From Campylobacterales bacterium (GTDB lineage: Bacteria > Campylobacterota > Campylobacteria > Campylobacterales > Sulfurimonadaceae): 64,000 nt of DNA. The position numbers and the translations under genes were made by a program. Location of the stretch: contig JAPLGO010000009.1 in NCBI GenBank assembly GCA_026390115.1, positions 1-64,000 on the forward strand, in the 5' to 3' direction. Shown here in pieces: positions 14,714 to 37,530 of the stretch. The first letter of the stretch is position 1. Each line of letters opens with the position of its first letter. The notes beneath the pieces are model-generated. The model made no database searches, was not told the DNA's origin, and saw nothing but the letters and a program-made list of their open reading frames with translations.

Positions 14714-15219
14714 CCATGCTCGAAAAAGTCTCGCTCTTTAATGCAAAGCGAGACTTTTTAAACTTCTTCTTTGCATGCGGATTTATCCTTTTTTACACTC
14801 TACTTATGGAGTATCAGAACTACAAAAATTTTACAAAGTTTGATACAGCACTGGTCAATGCTACCGTTTTAAGCCAATACACAAAAACAAAAGAGTCAAA
14901 AACATATCAGATTCTGAAGCTAAAAAGTGACACAGGATTTGTTTTTTATACCATGAAAAACAGCTCATTTCCAGAATCACTTGGCAAAACACTTAAGCTT
15001 GAGATAACTACTGATAAGATTAGTTTTTATAACTACTTCACCTCTTTTTTTTCATACAGCACTATCTTGGACAGTAGTTATAATGAGACTCTGAAGCAGA
15101 AATTAAATAACTTTATTGCATCCCAACATGAAAACAGAGAGATGGCGAATATATATCAAGCACTCTTTTTAGCCATGCCGGTCGATAAAAGTTTACAAGC
15201 AAACTTCTCCGTTTTAGGG

Positions 15220-15224
15220 GTCTC
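15220..15224. repeat. Left copy of 5-bp target-site duplication GTCTC
   Basis: GTCTC just before TGACAATAG; identical GTCTC at 23361-23365. Confidence 0.85.
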
Positions 15225-15248
15225 TGACAATAGTCTGAGTTTTTTGTA
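15225..15248 (+). repeat. Left terminal inverted repeat
   Basis: TGACAATAGTCTGAGTTTTTTGTA, imperfect match to the right end. Confidence 0.75.
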
Positions 15249-15286
15249 CAATTCAAATTAAACTATTAAGTTTTATAGCTTTTTTA

Positions 15287-15310
15287 GTCATACTAAGTTG
15301 TACTAAAATT
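15287..15310 (+). repeat. Putative transposase-binding direct repeat 1
   Basis: GTCATACTAAGTTGTACTAAAATT. Confidence 0.6.
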
Positions 15311-15314
15311 CTAG

Positions 15315-15337
15315 CTCATTGTATTAGTTTGTAAATT
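15315..15337 (+). repeat. Putative transposase-binding direct repeat 2
   Basis: CTCATTGTATTAGTTTGTAAATT. Confidence 0.5.
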
Positions 15338-15361
15338 GTCATATTAATTTGTATAAGTTTT
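15338..15361 (+). repeat. Putative transposase-binding direct repeat 3
   Basis: GTCATATTAATTTGTATAAGTTTT. Confidence 0.6.
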
Positions 15362-15372
15362 AAGGAGCTTAG

Positions 15373-16080
15373 ATGTTTGATAAACCTTCAAGAGTAATAC
15401 CAAAGAATTATAGAAACATAACGGGTAAGTTTTCTAGCAAAAAGTCTGACAGGCTTATCAGCTATGAATCAAAACTCGAACGTGATTTTCTATATCTTTT
15501 TGAGCTTAACAATATTGTTTTGAAAATACTTGAACAGCCTTTTACAGTTGAATATACTATGGATCAGCAAGAATACAAATATACACCAGATTTTTATTTA
15601 AAAACACCTATGGGATATAAAGATATCGTTGTTGAAGTTAAGTATCATAATGAGCTAAAAACAATATTTCCCACCTCAAAATACAAATATAGGGCTGCAC
15701 AACAACATATAAAAGATGCAGATATTGAATTTCATATTTATACCGATAGATGCAGTTTCATTCAAAGTGATGAGTATAAATTCAACACACATTTTTTGCT
15801 AAATTACAATTTTCTACCTACTGATGATCTACAGATAATTCAAGAACTATTTTTTCCATACATTAGTATCGAACAACTACTTAATCTGTATAGCAGTGAT
15901 AAATACAAACAACTAAATTTGTTAAATAGTCTCTGGACAATGATTAGGAGAAACATCATTAGAGTTGATCTATTTGAAAAATTAACGTTGGATACTCAGT
16001 TGTTGGAACTTAAAAGATATGACGAGGAAACTTATATGGCTCATCTTGATGGAAAAATATTAAAAGGGTATTTATTATGA
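15373..16080 (+). CDS. tnsA: TnsA-like heteromeric transposase endonuclease subunit
   Basis: PD-(D/E)XK signature: YESKLERDFLYLFELNN...YTPDFYLKT...DIVVEVKY; first gene of the element. Confidence 0.82.
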   Translation: MFDKPSRVIPKNYRNITGKFSSKKSDRLISYESKLERDFLYLFELNNIVLKILEQPFTVEYTMDQQEYKYTPDFYLKTPMGYKDIVVEVKYHNELKTIFPTSKYKYRAAQQHIKDADIEFHIYTDRCSFIQSDEYKFNTHFLLNYNFLPTDDLQIIQELFFPYISIEQLLNLYSSDKYKQLNLLNSLWTMIRRNIIRVDLFEKLTLDTQLLELKRYDEETYMAHLDGKILKGYLL

Positions 16081-16283
16081 GTTTAGAGATCAAAGAAAAT
16101 GCCAAAGTATATAAATTGGATCAGGAATACATTATTACTAAAGTTATTCCACAGGTTTTGCAAATAGTGTTAATATTTTATTACTCATTTATCATCTCTA
16201 GGAATCAGAATAATATATTAAACTTTAAAGAGATAGAATTTTTAAAAATACAGAGGAGCGAAAAATGTCAAATAATTTTATAG
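16077..16283 (+). pseudogene. Possible remnant of a tnsB N-terminus (truncated transposase)
   Basis: ATG overlaps the tnsA stop by 4 bp, where tnsB is expected; short ORF KVYKLDQEYIITKVIP followed by non-conserved sequence; no DDE domain. Confidence 0.45.
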
Positions 16284-16426
16284 ACGATGACTTAGTATCT
16301 GACGAAAAAGAGCAGGATGATGATGTTGCTTATGACTATTTGAATGAAAAACCTATAGATGAGGATGATTATGAAGATGAGGACGGATATGAGCATGAAG
16401 AAAATGACGATAGGTTTTATTTTTAA
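16265..16426 (+). CDS. Small acidic protein (53 aa)
   Basis: MSNNFIDDDLVSDEKEQDDDVAYDYLNEKPIDEDDYEDEDGYEHEENDDRFYF, strongly D/E-rich. Confidence 0.4.
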   Translation: MSNNFIDDDLVSDEKEQDDDVAYDYLNEKPIDEDDYEDEDGYEHEENDDRFYF

Positions 16427-16471
16427 ATATACAAATCGTTCATAAAATTCGAGCTGTGATACAATACATCT

Positions 16472-16702
16472 ATGAAATCAGTATTCGATGAACCCATTCC
16501 TTTTAGCGACTATGTAATATTCTACTTTGTAGATAAGTTTGGAGTTGGCTGGCTAGACTTTTACTATGCCATACTTGTGATAATTGTCGGCATTACAATA
16601 GGTGGGTGGGTAACAGCTTTTTATGCTTACTCAAAATGCCAACGAGCTATTCAAGAAGCAGTAGAAGACGAACAAGCCTCTAGAAGCAGAAGGAAGAAAT
16701 AA
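16472..16702 (+). CDS. Small single-TM membrane protein
   Basis: 76 aa, one TM; stop abuts the ATG of the prepilin-like gene. Confidence 0.5.
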   Translation: MKSVFDEPIPFSDYVIFYFVDKFGVGWLDFYYAILVIIVGITIGGWVTAFYAYSKCQRAIQEAVEDEQASRSRRKK

Positions 16703-17239
16703 ATGAAAAGAGCCTTTACTCTATTAGAACTTGTGTTCGTAACTGTAGCAATAGGTATATTAGCGGCTATTATTATCCCAAGAGTGAGTAGTCACTCTGT
16801 CCCAGAAGCTGCTATACAATTAAAAGACCACATCAGATACACACAGCACTTAGCGATGGTGAATGATAAGTTTGATGCTGCAAACCCGACTTGGCATAGA
16901 AACAGATGGCAGATTAAATTTACTGGTAATCAATACTCCATAGTAAGTGATAATAATACAGTATTCGCTAAAGACCCTCAAAACAACGGTAAAAATCTAC
17001 AAAACTTAGATCTCAATAGCAAATATGGTGTTACAGTTGCATTAAGTGGCAGTTGCGGGGCAAATGCAATAATTAGCTTTGACCACTTGGGAAGACCGCT
17101 TGTTGGAGATTTAAGTGCTACAACTAAAGCGTATGATGCTACAAAACTAATGACAGCAAATTGTGTCATTACTCTCTCAAATGGCAGTGAAGCTGATCAG
17201 AACCTTACTATCATTCCTGAAACGGGGTATGTTCGATGA
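16703..17239 (+). CDS. Prepilin-like protein with N-methylation motif
   Basis: MKRAFTLLELVFVTVAIGILAAIIIPR type IV pilin/pseudopilin N-terminus. Confidence 0.85.
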   Translation: MKRAFTLLELVFVTVAIGILAAIIIPRVSSHSVPEAAIQLKDHIRYTQHLAMVNDKFDAANPTWHRNRWQIKFTGNQYSIVSDNNTVFAKDPQNNGKNLQNLDLNSKYGVTVALSGSCGANAIISFDHLGRPLVGDLSATTKAYDATKLMTANCVITLSNGSEADQNLTIIPETGYVR

Positions 17240-17292
17240 GTATAAGTTACTTTGGGCTTACCCTGCATAAAAAAACACATTAAGAAAATTGA

Positions 17293-17742
17293 ATGCAATC
17301 GGTAAAAACAAAGAGTAGAAAAATAAGGCTCAATAAAAAATATCAGCCAATTGCCACTGAGTCAGATGAAATTTATATCAATGGCTTCTTTCATTTTAAT
17401 GTATCCCAAATAATAAAAGATATTGATTCTAAAAAACTTATTGTTCAATCAGAAAAAATCAACTTGAAGCATTGGCTCAAAGACCATTCTCTTGAATTTA
17501 GTGTTATAGACAAAGAGCATCTTAAAACAGTTGATACAAATAAGCCTATTTTACAAGCAGAAATCAGAATCAACAAATATGAAATTATTGATGGCAATCA
17601 TAGAATCCAAAAAGCTTTTGATGATGGCTTGAAATTTATAGACTCCTATAAGCTCCAGGGAGAGCAACTTCTACCCTATTTTATGGAAACTGTGCAGTAT
17701 GAAGCGTATGTGCGATATTGGAATGAAAAGTTACTTGATTAA
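17293..17742 (+). CDS. ParB/Srx-fold-like hypothetical protein
   Basis: EIRINKYEIIDGNHRIQKAFDDG resembles the ParB-like DGNHR motif. Confidence 0.45.
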   Translation: MQSVKTKSRKIRLNKKYQPIATESDEIYINGFFHFNVSQIIKDIDSKKLIVQSEKINLKHWLKDHSLEFSVIDKEHLKTVDTNKPILQAEIRINKYEIIDGNHRIQKAFDDGLKFIDSYKLQGEQLLPYFMETVQYEAYVRYWNEKLLD

Positions 17743-17927
17743 ATGAATAAGAATTGATTATCTGCATAGTAACATGAAATTTTGCAAGAACTCTAATGAA
17801 TAAAAAAATTAAAATTAAGTTATTAATAAGTAACAACTTATTTCAAATAAATATTTTTTGTTAAAATACATCTATAAATTTTAATTATATAAGATACAAT
17901 CATTTTATTCACACATTAGGATTCAAA

Positions 17928-18143
17928 ATGAAAAAATTGTTGTTAAGTTTATTTATCTTGTTTGGATTGTTTAGTCCAGCATCAGCTGCGACTCATGTTA
18001 AGGGTTATACAAAGTCAAACGGTACACATGTTACATCACACATGAGAAGTAACTCAAACTCATCTAAAAAAGACAACTATTCTACAAAAGGAAATGTAAA
18101 TCCATATACTGGAGCTGTTGGCACTAAACCTGCATATAAATAA
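17928..18143 (+). CDS. Small exported protein (HVKGYTKSNGTHVTSHMRSN type)
   Basis: Signal peptide MKKLLLSLFILFGLFSPASA; similar motif repeated near 18500. Confidence 0.6.
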   Translation: MKKLLLSLFILFGLFSPASAATHVKGYTKSNGTHVTSHMRSNSNSSKKDNYSTKGNVNPYTGAVGTKPAYK

Positions 18144-18197
18144 AGATGGAGAAGGCATTAATAGACTGAGACTTAAAATTATTATGTAAGGTAGATT

Positions 18198-18455
18198 ATG
18201 AAAAAGATTATACTGTCACTATCTTTGCTTTTTATATTTGTGCAAGCTGATCTTAACATTTTAGTAATTGATAAAAAAGATTCAAGTGAGCAGTCGCTTT
18301 GCAGGAAAAATTTGGATACTCAGAGTATTCAACAAAGAGGTTGCTGTTCACATCATGGTGGGGTTAGTGGATGCTCTAATGGAAAAATTGTTTGCAATGA
18401 CGGTACTTATAGTCCATCTTGTACATGTGCTATACCATTAAATCCATTAGGCTAA
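18198..18455 (+). CDS. Small Cys-rich exported protein
   Basis: Signal peptide plus QRGCCSHHGGVSGCSNGKIVCNDGTYSPSCTC. Confidence 0.6.
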   Translation: MKKIILSLSLLFIFVQADLNILVIDKKDSSEQSLCRKNLDTQSIQQRGCCSHHGGVSGCSNGKIVCNDGTYSPSCTCAIPLNPLG

Positions 18456-18474
18456 TAGAAGGAAAAAATTATTC

Positions 18475-18618
18475 ATCTATTTTTGATATCTACTCTATAT
18501 GCGAAAGATGTTAGTGTTAAAGGTTATTATCGAAGCAATGGCATCCTTGTCAGTCCACACATTAGAAGTTCGCCAGATTCTTCCAAACAGTATCGACGAG
18601 CTAAAAGACACTTATAAT
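18475..18618 (+). pseudogene. Degenerate paralogue of the 17928 small exported protein
   Basis: Frame reads LFLISTLYAKDVSVKGYYRSNGILVSPHIRSSPDSSKQYRRAKRHL* with no ATG start; matches VKGYTKSNGTHVTSHMRSNSNSSKK. Confidence 0.5.
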
Positions 18619-18621
18619 ATG

Positions 18622-19215
18622 TTATGTATGGCTCAATCTTTGTGATAATTTTTCTACCCATTCAATTTGCTTTTTATATATTCTTGGCAAAGGATGATAA
18701 TAGGCATATTGCTTAGTATCTTTTTTTATCCCAATAGGTGATGGATGATTTATTGTTTCAATAGCCAACTTAGCAAGTTCGGTTAGTAATGAGTTCACAC
18801 CCCATCCATATATTATAGGAACGTCTTTAACAAATAATGAGTTAAAATCATCTATTCTATCGCTGTCAAAAATCGTGTGGGGAACAGTCTTTGAGTCTTC
18901 CGATTTTACAAACTTATATAACTTGTTTGAATCAGGTGTTCTTAAATCAGAAAGATTTAGAATGCGTGCATATTTAAACGAAGTATTTTTCATTACTTTC
19001 ATAATTTGATCTTGTGTATTGTCAGGTGCAGCAAATGAAGGCTTAGTGTTATTATCTATTCCATCTAATGGATATGATGATCCCGGGTTCATCATGACAA
19101 CCATGAGATCAGGATTTGTGATTTGTGATGATTTGAGTTTTATATCGAGATATTTTCTGCATTTATAATCACAAATTTTATAAAACAGGCCGGTTATTTC
19201 ATATTCATTTCTCAT
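18622..19215 (-). CDS. DUF1643-like protein
   Basis: VVMMNPGSSYPLDG, ILNLSDLRTPD, YGWGVNSLL, HPLPR motif order. Confidence 0.45.
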   Translation of the reverse strand: MRNEYEITGLFYKICDYKCRKYLDIKLKSSQITNPDLMVVMMNPGSSYPLDGIDNNTKPSFAAPDNTQDQIMKVMKNTSFKYARILNLSDLRTPDSNKLYKFVKSEDSKTVPHTIFDSDRIDDFNSLFVKDVPIIYGWGVNSLLTELAKLAIETINHPSPIGIKKDTKQYAYYHPLPRIYKKQIEWVEKLSQRLSHT

Positions 19216-19293
19216 CTAATTTATCCCTTTTGGAATGACCCCCACTTATATAGACAGAAACTTATTCAGTTAACACCTAATTTTTTGAAGCCT

Positions 19294-20232
19294 CTAAATT
19301 TTATCTTTATTCAAACTATCATAAAGTAAATCAGTTAGTTCAGATTTTAGATAATCATCATCTAGTAATTTTAAGAATTTTTCCACGCTTACTTTACTCT
19401 TTAATTCTAATTTACCATCCTCACCAAACTTTAAACTTTTTTTCAATTCAGGATGGTTTTCTATAAAAGAGATGACTTTTGACTGATTATCTCTAATTAT
19501 ATTTATTACAGGAGAATTTTTAACAAGATTGACTTTCTTTGCTATTTTTTTTGATTTAACCATTTCTTCTAATTTGCTTATATCATCTAAAAAGTCTATT
19601 GCACCGATAGTTGCCAATGCTTCTTCTGCTTTTTTGACAATAACACTTTCATAACCAAGAGAGCTTTCTAACATATCAAGCTTTATAACTAAAATATGTT
19701 CATTTAACACAAGAAATTGAAAATTTCTATCAATCTTCAAGATATCTTCTTTTAGTTCATCAATATTTTCATCACTTTGTTTAAAAAATAAAGTTTTTCC
19801 ACGCTTTAAAAGATTTATAGGATAGTTCTTTTTGTATAAAAGAATATTCTTTTCGCTTGTTCCTATTTTTATGATGAAGGTTTCAATATCTGAAAAGCTT
19901 GTATCTTTAAATGAAAAAGTATCATGCCCTTCACTGTCAAAATTTGCTAGATGTGAAATTTTCTCATATACATTTTCGCTATCAAAATAATAATAAGTTT
20001 TTGCATCTTCATCATTCGCACTATCTATTGATTTTAATCTATACTCATTTTCGTCGTTTAATAAAGTATCACTAATACTTTCTTTAAATAATTTCAATAA
20101 ACTACCAGAAGCCTCATCTGAAATAGATGAAAATGTTATCTCGTTTTCTTTTGAAATTAAATACAACTCCAAAGTGACTTCATCACAACCTAAAATTTCT
20201 TCTAATGATTTTTTTAAACTACTTACTTCCAT
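19294..20232 (-). CDS. kwaB: Kiwa anti-phage protein KwaB-like (DUF4868)
   Basis: DUF4868-like layout with C-terminal SVEKFLKLLDDDYLKSELTD; 1 bp downstream of the KwaA-like membrane protein. Confidence 0.72.
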   Translation of the reverse strand: MEVSSLKKSLEEILGCDEVTLELYLISKENEITFSSISDEASGSLLKLFKESISDTLLNDENEYRLKSIDSANDEDAKTYYYFDSENVYEKISHLANFDSEGHDTFSFKDTSFSDIETFIIKIGTSEKNILLYKKNYPINLLKRGKTLFFKQSDENIDELKEDILKIDRNFQFLVLNEHILVIKLDMLESSLGYESVIVKKAEEALATIGAIDFLDDISKLEEMVKSKKIAKKVNLVKNSPVINIIRDNQSKVISFIENHPELKKSLKFGEDGKLELKSKVSVEKFLKLLDDDYLKSELTDLLYDSLNKDKI

Positions 20233-20233
20233 A

Positions 20234-20809
20234 CTATAATCCTTTTATTAAATATATGTTATTACCTAAATCTTTGTATTTATACCTTTGCGTATTATTA
20301 GTTATTGTTCCTTTTATTATCAGTACAACAGACTTATTATCACTTTTTGCTTTATAAATCTTATAGCCAAACAATAGTAATGTTGGGTTTAAATAATATA
20401 AATTCGATTTTATATAAATTACACCTATCATTATCAATAAAACTATCACTACAACAAAGCTTCTTGGCTCATTAAGGTTAAATGTAATAAGAGGAATTAT
20501 ATAAGTTGATAAAAATGTTAAATGATCAAAATCAGCAGGTGTAATCTCAATAAAAGTTTTAGCGGCTCTTTCTCCATATCCACTATTATTTTGAAATACA
20601 ACATAGGACAACAATGCTAATGATATTAAGAAAATAAAAAAAGTAACTTGCCAATTACAAATTATTAATTGTGAAAAATATTCTACTTTAGTAGCATAGA
20701 AATCCCACTTTAAGAAAGGCTCAATCTTTATGTATTGCACCACAAAAATCATATATAAAGGGATTAGTGATAAATTATATAAATTTGATTTATAAAAAAT
20801 ATTATTCAA
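20234..20809 (-). CDS. kwaA: Kiwa anti-phage membrane protein KwaA-like
   Basis: ~190-aa four-TM protein, GYGERAAKTFIEITPADFDHLTFLSTYIIPLITFNLNEPRS; directly followed by the DUF4868 gene. Confidence 0.7.
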   Translation of the reverse strand: MNNIFYKSNLYNLSLIPLYMIFVVQYIKIEPFLKWDFYATKVEYFSQLIICNWQVTFFIFLISLALLSYVVFQNNSGYGERAAKTFIEITPADFDHLTFLSTYIIPLITFNLNEPRSFVVVIVLLIMIGVIYIKSNLYYLNPTLLLFGYKIYKAKSDNKSVVLIIKGTITNNTQRYKYKDLGNNIYLIKGL

Positions 20810-20990
20810 CTTTTAACTACCCTCAATATGTTTGTATACTTAACTCGGCATTAGTTTTTAATTATTAATCAAAGTTACACTTTTTATATTGTATCTAAAA
20901 ACAATAGATATTTATATCCTCATGATAAAAGGGCGCATTTTATTTTCAGGATAAGAGCAAGGGAGATTTAGACCATTCAAATGCCTCTTA

Positions 20991-22385
20991 TCAGCAAAGC
21001 AAATTACTTATAATTGGAAGATTAAAAATAGAACTTTCAACGCCCTCATTAAGAAGTAATGTTGTTTTTATGAAATAATTTATTTCATTTTGTGACATAT
21101 TTCCATAATTGCCAGCATTAAAATTAAATTGACTTCTGCCTATTTCTGCACTTAAAAATAAATCTTCACCCATTTCTTTTATCAATAAGTTTTCTTCAGC
21201 AAGATAGTTATAAAGTTCTGTCCCATGATAAGGCCTAAATTGAAAAACACTTGTTCTGAATACAACACCATATATACGTGCCATATTAGTTAGCTCTAAA
21301 GCAAGAGATAATGTTTTATTAGCATCAGATACCTCTTCAGTAGGAAAACCATATATAAAGTATCCTTTTACGTTAATGCCGGCAAAAAATATTTTTTTAA
21401 AAATATCTTTAATATTGTCTATTTGGTTTGGCTTGTGTATCATTCTTAAAATTTTCTCTGAACCGGATTCAATACCTATTGAAAGTTCGTAACAACCACT
21501 TTTTTTAAGGGAATTTATACCTTCTTGAGAACTTTTAGTAAATGACATGGTGTGAGCCATTGAACGCCATAGTAGCTCTTTCCTTGGTGAAAAAATATCA
21601 ATTGCTTTTTTAATATTTTGATTATTTTTTAAAAAAAGATCATCTAAAATTCTTATTGATCGCACGTTAATATAAGTTTTCTCAATGTAGTCTAATTCTT
21701 TCATTATACTTTGTGCACTTCTTTCTCGAACTGAACTATGTTTATTTAGTTTTCTGGCAGCACCACAAAAGGCACAGTTATAGATGCAACCTCTACTTGT
21801 AATTATTGAAATCTCACGCAGGTTATTAATTTTACTTGTTAAAGGTTCATTTGTAAAAAAACTTCTATCAAGGGTTATATCCGAAATATCTTTTGGAAAA
21901 TATACAGAGGTACTATCAACTTTATACAAAGTTCTATTTGTATAAATTTCATTAATTGTTATTGGGCTTTGCTTGATATTTTGCTTCACAATATCAATAG
22001 TTATGAGTTCGCCATCACCAATTACTCCTATGATTTTATTTTTAGTTACGAAGCTAAATATTTCTGTATATAAAAATTGTACAGAATTTCCACCAGCGAT
22101 AAATGTCGTTTCAAAAGAAATGCTTTCAACTATTTCTTTTGTAATGGACAGATTTGTTGAAAAAAAATTCATTCCTATAAATATAGGTTTCATACTATTT
22201 AATTGTTCTATAAGGTTATACATAGATATATTATTCACTACAGCATCAATCAACAAGCAATCAATATTATTTTCTCTTAATTTAGTGGCAATATAACCTA
22301 GTCCAATAGGTGGTAAAAAGTCATCTGGGTCATGGTTTTCTTTTTTTTCTCTAAAGAGCGGAGAATTGACAAGTACTATTTCCAT
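20991..22385 (-). CDS. B12-binding-domain radical SAM enzyme
   Basis: LPPIGLGYIATKLRENNIDCLLIDA (B12-binding-like) and GCIYNCAFCGAARK (CxxxCxxC). Confidence 0.85.
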   Translation of the reverse strand: MEIVLVNSPLFREKKENHDPDDFLPPIGLGYIATKLRENNIDCLLIDAVVNNISMYNLIEQLNSMKPIFIGMNFFSTNLSITKEIVESISFETTFIAGGNSVQFLYTEIFSFVTKNKIIGVIGDGELITIDIVKQNIKQSPITINEIYTNRTLYKVDSTSVYFPKDISDITLDRSFFTNEPLTSKINNLREISIITSRGCIYNCAFCGAARKLNKHSSVRERSAQSIMKELDYIEKTYINVRSIRILDDLFLKNNQNIKKAIDIFSPRKELLWRSMAHTMSFTKSSQEGINSLKKSGCYELSIGIESGSEKILRMIHKPNQIDNIKDIFKKIFFAGINVKGYFIYGFPTEEVSDANKTLSLALELTNMARIYGVVFRTSVFQFRPYHGTELYNYLAEENLLIKEMGEDLFLSAEIGRSQFNFNAGNYGNMSQNEINYFIKTTLLLNEGVESSIFNLPIISNLLC

Positions 22386-22528
22386 CCAACCCCTTTTATC
22401 AGTAAATTATAATTTATTATAACAGAATTACAATTTATTTACACGAGTAGATAATTACAGGAATAATAATTGCTGGTGTATAACTATTATAAAAAAATAT
22501 GATATAAAATTTATTATAAGCTTTATTT

Positions 22529-22564
22529 AAGATATATAAAGTTATAAATAACTTTATATATCTT
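22529..22564. promoter_or_regulatory. Perfect 17-bp inverted repeat (2-nt spacer) upstream of the UDG-like gene
   Basis: AAGATATATAAAGTTAT-AA-ATAACTTTATATATCTT. Confidence 0.6.
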
Positions 22565-22577
22565 ATTTGGACTTTTA

Positions 22578-23147
22578 ATGAAAAATATTTCAGAATGTGA
22601 AAAATGTGGTTTATGTAATAATCAAAAACCTTTACTAGATAATTGCAATCGTGCGGATGTAATGTGGGTTGGTCTTTCTGCTAAAAAAGTTGAAAGTTTA
22701 TTTGACGAAATACCTTTAGCAAACAACACGAATACAGGAAAAATAATAGCTGATATAGAGGAAGGCTTGGACGATATTTTATTTTATAAAACAAACATTG
22801 TAAAATGTCTCCCTTTGGATGAAAAGGGAAAAATCCGCTATCCAAACGTTGATGAAATGAGTGCGTGCCAAGATAATTTTAACAAAGAGCTAGAACAAGT
22901 AAAACCAAGTGTTGTATTTTTACTTGGGAAAAAAGTTAGTGATTTTTTATTTAAACTACATAAGAAACAAGACAAAACCATAAAGACAGTAGATGATAGT
23001 TGGTTTTATAATAATATAACTTTCATATCTATTCATCATCCTTCATATATTTATGTGTATAAGAGAAAATTTATTGCGGAATACGTTAAAAGTGTTCAGT
23101 CAATTATTGAACGAGAATTACCATACATACTAAGAGAAGCTAGTTAA
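22578..23147 (+). CDS. Uracil-DNA glycosylase superfamily-like protein
   Basis: N-terminal CEKCGLC, ILFYKTNIVKCLPL, KPSVVFLLGKKVSDFLF, IHHPSY; canonical motif 1 not preserved (WVGLSAKKVES). Confidence 0.6.
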   Translation: MKNISECEKCGLCNNQKPLLDNCNRADVMWVGLSAKKVESLFDEIPLANNTNTGKIIADIEEGLDDILFYKTNIVKCLPLDEKGKIRYPNVDEMSACQDNFNKELEQVKPSVVFLLGKKVSDFLFKLHKKQDKTIKTVDDSWFYNNITFISIHHPSYIYVYKRKFIAEYVKSVQSIIERELPYILREAS

Positions 23148-23336
23148 AATATTAATTGCCCAATTTTAGAGTTCGTTTGACACCTTAAGAGGTTATGGAA
23201 CAAAAAAATGACCTTTCAAATCAGATATTTAAAGCTTCATCTAACCTACCTTCAAAAAATATAGCCAATCGAGAAAGTGTTAATTAAAACTCTACTTAGA
23301 ATACCCTTCAGAATTGTACACTTTACTTTGAAAGAA

Positions 23337-23360
23337 TACAATTAACTATGATTATTGACA
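23337..23360 (-). repeat. Right terminal inverted repeat of the element
   Basis: Reverse complement TGTCAATAATCATAGTTAATTGTA, imperfect match to the left end. Confidence 0.75.
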
Positions 23361-24119
23361 GTCTCGCATATCGTTGCTATTAGCGGTTTTCATCTTGGTA
23401 TTTTAAGTGCTCTGCTCTACCTTTTGCTTTCTAAGCCTTACAAAATTTTACAGAACAGATACTTTGTTTACAGAAATTCAAAAGTCGATCTGTTTCTCAT
23501 CATAACTACTATCTTGCTCTTTTATATGCTGTTTTTAGACTCACCAGATTCACTTTTGCGCTCTTTTGCCATGCTGATTGTCGGCTTTGTTTTGTATGAC
23601 AGAGGTTTTAAAATCATCTCCATGCAAACACTTTTTTTAACAGTAATACTCCTCTTAGTTTTTTCTCCTCGGCTTCTCTTTTCGCTTGGATTCTGGCTCT
23701 CTGTTTTTGGTGTTTTTTACATATTTTTATTTTTAATCCACTTCAAACATCTCAGCAAAATTTGGCAATTTTTTTTAGTAGAATTTAGCACCTACCTTTT
23801 AATGCTCCCGCTCGCTTTGGCTCTTTTTGGAGCTTTCGGAATCTACCACCCATTTTCTATTATTTTAAGTATGCTTTTTATCCTTTTTTATCCGCTGAGT
23901 ATATTTCTGCATATTATAGGTTTGGGGAATCTGTTTGATGGCTTGCTGCAAAGTTTGATTTTATTAGGAGAAACGAAACATGTCGTACCTCTGAGCATGC
24001 CGTTTTTAGCACTTCATATTGCCTTCTCATTTTGGGCAATATTTAAAAAGCTTGGAATGTGGGTTTTGTTGGCATATTCATGCGGAATTTTTGTTTATGC
24101 TCTTTACATGCTTTATTGA
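23355..24119 (+). pseudogene. comEC: comEC 3' fragment (Competence membrane domain); native sequence from 23361
   Basis: VSHIVAISGFHLGILSALLY...LDSPDSLLRSFAM, ComEC core; readable only from a TTG supplied by the element end. Confidence 0.9.
23361..23365. repeat. Right copy of 5-bp target-site duplication GTCTC
   Basis: GTCTC just after ...TTATTGACA; identical to 15220-15224. Confidence 0.85.
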
Positions 24120-35706: not shown

Positions 35707-37530
35707 ATGCTTAACGAAAACAAAAATAAAAAGATATTTTTACTTTATGCCCTTATCGGGCTTGGCTTTACCATCTTTTTAAGTGTTATGCTTGTGACGG
35801 TGCTAAAATCTCGTAATCTACCCTCACTCTATACGGATGATACTTCAAAAGCTGAACGAGGAAGTATCATCAGTGCAGATGGATTTCATATTGCAACTAC
35901 AAAAAAACTTTATAAAGTAGTTGTAAATAACAACTATATTGATCCGGAAAAAGAGGATCTTTTTATACAGCTTTTTAGTATCTACTCCGGAATGGATGCA
36001 CTAGAGGTAAGAGAGAAGCTTAAAGAAAAAAAAGGTGTTATTGTTTTAAGCTACTCTATACCGGAAAAAGAGGCGCAATATCTAAAGAATCTGGCAAAAG
36101 AACTAAGAAAGTATAAAGTTTTCATAGAAAGAAAAGATCACAAAACAGGTACTAGGATGCTCCATGGGTTAAGCATTATAGAGAGTGGAGAGAGCAGAGA
36201 GTATCCATATGGAAAACTTTTAACGCCAATCATAGGATATACACATAAACAAGAAGATAACGGATATACGCGAATCAAAGGTGTTAAAGGGCTAGAAAAA
36301 AGGTTTGACGAAGAGCTTTCAGCCAGACAAGATGGCTCTAGCATTGGTCCACGAGATGTCAATAGCTATATAATACTCAATAGAGACAGTTTTACAAAAC
36401 CGAATATAAATGGACTAGATATAAAACTTACAATTCCCATTGCTCTTCAAATAAAAATGGAAAACATGTGCGACCTGATGAAAAAAGAGCTTGGAGCCGA
36501 GCAGGTAATGCTTGCCGTTATGAACTCAAAAAACGGCAAAGTTTTATCCATGGCAACCTCAAATAGGTTTTTTCCAAAAGATATAAAAAAAAGTGACTAT
36601 CCCTACTTAAATAGCGGAATCATTGAATATAGCTTTGAACCGGGAAGTGTTATAAAAGCAGTGACATTCTCTCTATTGCTAGATAAAGATTTAATAAATC
36701 CGTACGACATGGTCAATGGATACTTCGGGAAATATACCATCGGAAATAAAACAATAACGGATGAACATAAATTTGATAGGCTCTCTGCCGAAGACGTAAT
36801 CGTCCACTCATCAAATATTGGTATGGCTCAACTCTCACAAAAACTCTCCGGCGCTGAGTTTTATGAGGGTTTAATGAAGTTTGGTTTATCTCAAAAATCT
36901 ACAAATGACTTTATTTATGAAAGAATGGGCTCTGTACCAAATAGCAATAAACTAGACAATGAAATATATAAAGCCACATGTTCTTATGGCTATGGAATGA
37001 CAGCAAATCTTATGCAGTTAATTCGTGCTTACGGTGTTTTTAACAACAACGGAAAAATAGTATATCCTCAAATTGCTGCTAGCTATGTTGATGCTTTTAA
37101 CAGAGAAACAGTTATAAAAAATGATGAGCAAACCCAAGTAATAAAAAGTTCTACAGCGTCAAGAATGCAAAAAATTCTTATAAAAACTGTAAATGAGGGA
37201 ACCGGCTACAAAGCCAGAACTGAAGGTTTAGTCATAGGCGGAAAAACAGGAACGGCGCACATCGTTGAAGAGGGAACATATGTAAATAAATATAATACTG
37301 CTTTTGTGGGATTTGCAAATGATGCAACAAATAATTATACAATCGGAGTTATTACCGTTCAACCTACATCAAGCCAATTTGCGGCTCAAACCTCTGTTCC
37401 TGTTTTTAAAAGGGCTGTTAATATTATGATTGAAGATGGCTATCTGACACCGCTAAAGACAGAGGCTACTACACTCAAACAAGATGTTGACTTGAAGCCG
37501 GATATTCTTGAAGAGATAGCACCGCATTAA
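35707..37530 (+). CDS. Penicillin-binding protein, FtsI/PBP2 type transpeptidase
   Basis: RGSIISADG, FEPGSVIKA, SSNIGM (SxN), GGKTGTAHIVEEG (KTG). Confidence 0.9.
   Translation: MLNENKNKKIFLLYALIGLGFTIFLSVMLVTVLKSRNLPSLYTDDTSKAERGSIISADGFHIATTKKLYKVVVNNNYIDPEKEDLFIQLFSIYSGMDALEVREKLKEKKGVIVLSYSIPEKEAQYLKNLAKELRKYKVFIERKDHKTGTRMLHGLSIIESGESREYPYGKLLTPIIGYTHKQEDNGYTRIKGVKGLEKRFDEELSARQDGSSIGPRDVNSYIILNRDSFTKPNINGLDIKLTIPIALQIKMENMCDLMKKELGAEQVMLAVMNSKNGKVLSMATSNRFFPKDIKKSDYPYLNSGIIEYSFEPGSVIKAVTFSLLLDKDLINPYDMVNGYFGKYTIGNKTITDEHKFDRLSAEDVIVHSSNIGMAQLSQKLSGAEFYEGLMKFGLSQKSTNDFIYERMGSVPNSNKLDNEIYKATCSYGYGMTANLMQLIRAYGVFNNNGKIVYPQIAASYVDAFNRETVIKNDEQTQVIKSSTASRMQKILIKTVNEGTGYKARTEGLVIGGKTGTAHIVEEGTYVNKYNTAFVGFANDATNNYTIGVITVQPTSSQFAAQTSVPVFKRAVNIMIEDGYLTPLKTEATTLKQDVDLKPDILEEIAPH

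Follow-up and report, generated by a model that had tools for sequence, protein, structure and literature searches.

Mobile elements that interrupt the competence gene comM are well known (PMC4774983, PMC11472951, PMC10293859). They include the AbaR/Tn6022-type elements of Acinetobacter, which target comM via TnsF at its Walker B motif, a motif that is also the target of Tsy elements, which have a tyrosine recombinase together with TnsF (PMC10293859). Insertions of mobile DNA in comEC are also on record, but are rare: they are described in all Piscirickettsia salmonis genomes and, as Tn1207.3-type elements, in streptococci (PMC12955456). ComEC is the DNA entry channel of the inner membrane, and its removal abolishes transformation in the species tested (PMC11472951, PMC12955456). 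Defence genes are usual among the cargo of Tn7-like transposons; one survey covered 6,549 of these and reports 23 KwaB hits (PMC8649781).

Here we analysed a 64,000-nucleotide stretch of DNA (the window) from a Campylobacterales bacterium of the Sulfurimonadaceae, in which comEC is interrupted by a mobile element. We consider it very probable that this is a defective insertion of the Tn7-like tnsABC-tniQ family that abolished DNA uptake, with the probable loss of transformation. The element resembles the AbaR/Tn6022-type elements in its Tn7-related transposition machinery and in interrupting a competence gene; those elements likewise produce a 5-bp duplication, but they lie in comM and carry resistance rather than phage-defence genes. 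As in P. salmonis and the streptococci, where loss of transformation is predicted or shown, the interrupted gene is comEC, but the elements found there are not described as Tn7-like in the relevant passages (PMC12955456). The initial annotation had proposed comEC as a target parallel to comM; the Tn7-like family is indeed shared with insertions in comM, although disruption of comEC as such had already been reported (PMC12955456). We found no Tn7-like insertion in comEC among the papers searched, and the passages of PMC11472951 on these subjects describe none; this is probably the first to be described.

Insertion of an element into comEC

The features of the locus, in window coordinates, are as follows.

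14716-15224, plus strand: 5′ part of comEC, covering about the first 170 codons, with GTCTC copy 1 at its end
15220-15224: target-site duplication, copy 1, GTCTC (from flank and empty-site comparison)
15225-23360: whole element, 8,136 bp
15225-15248, plus strand: left terminal inverted repeat, TGACAATAGTCTGAGTTTTTTGTA, the tnsA-proximal end
15373-16080, plus strand: tnsA, TnsA-like endonuclease, 235 aa (Pfam PF08722, E = 1.7e-12)
16077-16283, plus strand: tnsB remnant, first 24 codons matching TnsB, remainder lost
16703-17239, plus strand: prepilin-type pseudopilin-like protein (TIGR02532, above cut-off)
17293-17742, plus strand: 149-aa protein without a family match
18622-19215, minus strand: DUF1643 protein
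19294-20232, minus strand: kwaB of the Kiwa anti-phage system (NF041623, above cut-off)
20234-20809, minus strand: kwaA of the Kiwa anti-phage system (NF041622, above cut-off)
20991-22385, minus strand: B12-binding/radical SAM protein, matching the phage-defence candidate PDC-M51A
22578-23147, plus strand: uracil-DNA-glycosylase (UDG)-superfamily protein, type 4-like
23337-23360, minus strand: right terminal inverted repeat, reverse complement TGTCAATAATCATAGTTAATTGTA
23361-23365: target-site duplication, copy 2, GTCTC (from flank and empty-site comparison)
23361-24119, plus strand: 3′ part of comEC, Competence domain and gene end (PF03772, E = 2e-20)

The initial annotation had placed 8,136 bp between the two parts of comEC with GTCTC on both sides, and this was exact to the base. 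Joining the flanks through a single GTCTC restored, as it had also stated, one open reading frame of 1,263 bp (420 codons) that reads LGVSHIVAISGFHLG across the join; the insertion lies between codons about 168 and 170. Residues 1-172 of the joined ComEC query matched the 5′ part in the genome itself at 99%.

The genome belongs to a large genus of the same order as Aliarcobacter. We searched with the joined protein in 120 congeners and found a comEC match in 115, the best two with 90% and 75% identity along the full protein. The lack of comEC in G105 and G110 was not taken as a loss of the gene, as dnaB is missing there too. The empty site predicted by the initial annotation was present in these relatives: nucleotide alignments of the joined region to 30 congeners ran gapless through the junction, and in the two closest (L002 and L003) the window flanks overlapped by exactly 5 bp on an uninterrupted comEC, where the site reads GTTTC in one copy. 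An intact second comEC, which would have spoken against this interpretation, was not found; a genome-wide search returned only the two halves at 14716-24119, and the genome thus lacks the intact Competence domain gene that would be expected in a transformable bacterium. The flanking GTCTC copies, the joined frame, the gapless congeners and the 5-bp overlap together confirm that comEC was broken by an insertion that duplicated 5 bp, and not by a chance split.

A Tn7-like relic and its cargo

The two ends of the element are of the TG...CA type and match at 18 of 24 positions, as first annotated, a level reached by none of 5,000 Markov shuffles. Repeats resembling TCA...TTGTA can be seen by eye near the ends, although in this AT-rich sequence the internal repeats do not exceed those in shuffles. 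Next to the left end lies tnsA, in whose translation the nuclease motif residues E, D and ExK are visible. It overlaps the start of the tnsB-remnant frame, the product of which matches TnsB (MSLEIKENAKVYKLDQEYIITKVI versus MSLEIREGNKVYKLNNEYVIISII; 62.5%, E = 2e-4) for about 24 residues, where the match ends. Relaxed tblastn searches of the element identified no tnsC, no tniQ/TnsD and no further tnsB beyond this 24-codon stub.

The closest TnsA found in the genome_contigs database and a 398-genome sample of the phylum (58% identical) belongs to a complete tnsA-tnsB-tnsC-tniQ element of Aliarcobacter vitoriensis (L063/L081, NZ_PDKB01000005.1). The right end of that element, TGTCAATTATCTTAGTTAATTGTA, agrees with TGTCAATAATCATAGTTAATTGTA at 22 of 24 bases, and the match extends for more than 40 bp (local alignment score 55, compared with a maximum of 38 in 1,000 shuffled pairs). 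The left ends agree less, at 13 of the 24 terminal bases (p = 0.05). The two elements are thus alike in TnsA, the right end, the TnsB N terminus, the 5-bp duplication and the interruption of a competence gene; they differ in that the A. vitoriensis element has a complete tnsABC-tniQ set, spans about 22.8 kb, lies near codon 50 of comM and carries other cargo.

The initial annotation had called the element Tn7-like and taken the duplication as the signature of that family. Exactly five bases are duplicated, but Mu-type elements also make 5-bp duplications, and it is tnsA and the sequences of the ends that carry the assignment. The combination of tnsA, the tnsB stub and the shared right end indicates a defective derivative of the family to which the A. 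vitoriensis element belongs. Judged by its genes and ends, then, the element is Tn7-like by descent, but it is a defective relic rather than a complete, functional transposon: with tnsB cut after about codon 24 and both tnsC and tniQ gone, it cannot move by itself.

The cargo includes a Kiwa system, with kwaA and kwaB adjacent on one strand and both above their NCBIfam cut-offs. The radical SAM gene resembling PDC-M51A is divergent from the adjoining UDG-superfamily gene (20991-23147), and this pair is possibly a second defence unit adjoining Kiwa. Defence genes are likewise aboard the Tn7-like transposons surveyed previously (PMC8649781), but the elements counted there are intact, whereas this one is without its transposase. 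The N-terminal DNA of the pseudopilin gene resembles pilin-like genes on the chromosomes of many congeners and one on contig 26 of the same genome (G000; 37130-37341), and the gene is possibly a captured pilin. Small open reading frames are also present on the plus strand of the element.

Choice of target

A search of 199 relatives returned no further whole copies of the element, only pieces: patches of 470-590 bp at 81-86% identity in two genomes, and pilin-like N termini. Matches of 46-47 bp resembling the right end were found at L152:61-107 (G103, contig 1), 184 bp from a comM fragment, and at L154:1017-1062 (G052, contig 71), indicating that other members of the genus carry related elements.

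The nearest relatives, L063 and L064, both interrupt comM near codon 50 and are flanked by 5-bp duplications, GACAG and ACGTA on the coding strand. More distant Tn7-like elements of the family and order occupy comM near codon 295 (L046, L055, L056, L061, L062 and L136) or near codon 374 (L044, L053 and L060). Of the further TnsA loci that we examined in the family and phylum, none adjoins comEC. The parallel with comM drawn by the initial annotation therefore holds for the element's own nearest relatives: comM is a recurrent target in the genus and the habitual home of these elements, and the insertion in comEC is a departure from this habit. The codon-50 site in comM of the same genome is empty.

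One explanation for this departure is that comEC is a dedicated attachment site, recognised by an ancestral TniQ, in which case this would be the first member to be seen of a Tn7-like lineage that targets comEC and thereby disables competence on purpose. The duplication adjoins a conserved LGVSH-ISGFH motif, and conserved coding anchors such as glmS and the Walker B motif of comM are frequent in Tn7-like elements (PMC10293859). We compared the targets using a matrix built from 22 comM codon-50 site sequences, and the comEC site ranked 55th of 2,969 positions, a weak likeness that is not significant once small offsets are allowed. The target selectors of Tn7-type elements bind on the tnsA-proximal side, and here that flank of comEC is not especially conserved (0.74, compared with a gene mean of 0.75). 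The non-significant rank and the unconserved flank leave dedicated targeting unproven. Because, in addition, only one insertion was found among the 115 congeners with a comEC match, no other TnsA locus examined has comEC beside it and the nearest relatives use comM, we regard a dedicated site as unlikely. A broader proposal is likewise unlikely: that a Tn7-like lineage in the order has a selector reading both comEC and comM, its niche being the competence genes collectively, and that this genome is the end state, with uptake (comEC) and recombination (comM) disabled by different elements. An off-target or opportunistic insertion is more likely than dedicated targeting of comEC.

A second interruption, in comM, and transformation

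The genome's own comM is also interrupted, by about 3.2 kb between codons 311 and 312, within the Walker B stretch GILFLDELP.

L080:6358-9583 (G000 contig 8, about 112,357-115,583): comM interruption

The insert contains an N-terminal fragment of a tyrosine recombinase, a remnant of an IS1595-type transposase, a DUF6471 protein and an MT-A70 methyltransferase; no tnsA or TnsF was identified in it. Its insertion site and recombinase fragment are those of Tsy elements, although TnsF is not among its identified genes, and it would fit a decayed element of the Tsy type. Similar breaks at codon 311/312 are present in G025 and G084. In the nearest congeners, G094 and G104, comEC and comM are both whole, which indicates that both breaks arose on the branch leading to this genome.

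Interruption or truncation of comM was observed in G007, G013, G048, G062, G092, G097, G103, G118, G025 and G084. Breaks recur in the genus at about codons 50-110, 295, 312 and 374, several with an adjoining TnsA. Among the other congeners, comEC is clearly degenerate in G013 alone (L120, contig 74), where it is a pseudogene with two frameshifts; the comM of G013 is cut next to a TnsA fragment. In G003 (L121, contig 38), an assembly 82% complete, comEC is absent downstream of dnaB, and the search for comM gave no credible match. Roughly 8-14 of about 110 genomes have an interrupted comM, and the chance that comM would be broken in both comEC-broken genomes is about 0.005 to 0.015, an informal figure from a small, hand-made tally that ignores phylogeny.

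The insertion cuts the N-terminal part of comEC from the Competence domain, and loss of transformation is likely on this basis; the independent break in comM strengthens the prediction, which was also that of the initial annotation. The genome also has dprA, with its domain uninterrupted. It is very improbable that competence is retained because the split is reversible or phase variable, or because the halves work as a split protein. The reading frame of the 3′ half is open, and a TTG at 23355, in the right end of the element, is a possible start codon, but there is no obvious ribosome-binding site at that start, the element has neither a recombinase nor a complete transposase, and comM is broken too.

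We propose the following history for the predicted loss of transformation. A Tn7-like element of the tnsABC-tniQ family with anti-phage cargo inserted into comEC, duplicating 5 bp. Whether since then or already by that time, it has lost tnsC, tniQ and the greater part of tnsB, the order of events being a matter of inference, and the relic is now immobile unless it is served by a transposase in trans. The genome has only one TnsA and no TnsB-type genes beyond a Mu-like transposase, its only Mu-transpos_C protein, which is paired with a MuB-like ATPase (G000:C33). Movement of the element by such a transposase was rejected on tnsA and the end sequences and is very improbable: although the genome holds this MuA/MuB-like pair, and both the 5-bp duplication and TG...CA ends suit either family, one end of the element has tnsA and the stub of tnsB beside it, and more than 40 bp of the right end agree with a tnsABC-tniQ element. 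For the Tn7-like insertion, an off-target or opportunistic event is proposed rather than a comEC-specific selector, and it may have been tolerated, or favoured as blocking removal of the element by transformation. With its N-terminal part severed from the membrane-located Competence domain, ComEC should no longer take up DNA across the inner membrane, and with comM broken independently by another element, transformation is probably gone for good.

The locus is a base-exact natural knock-out of the DNA-uptake channel by a Tn7-like element, and both the uninterrupted site and a complete related element are available for comparison. According to the intragenomic conflict model, mobile elements persist through disabling transformation (PMC4774983, PMC11472951). 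The breaks in comEC and comM, and the frequent interruptions of comM, make environmental Campylobacterota a new test bed for such persistence, and the same genomes also allow a test of the competing view, that selection relaxed once an initial loss had occurred.
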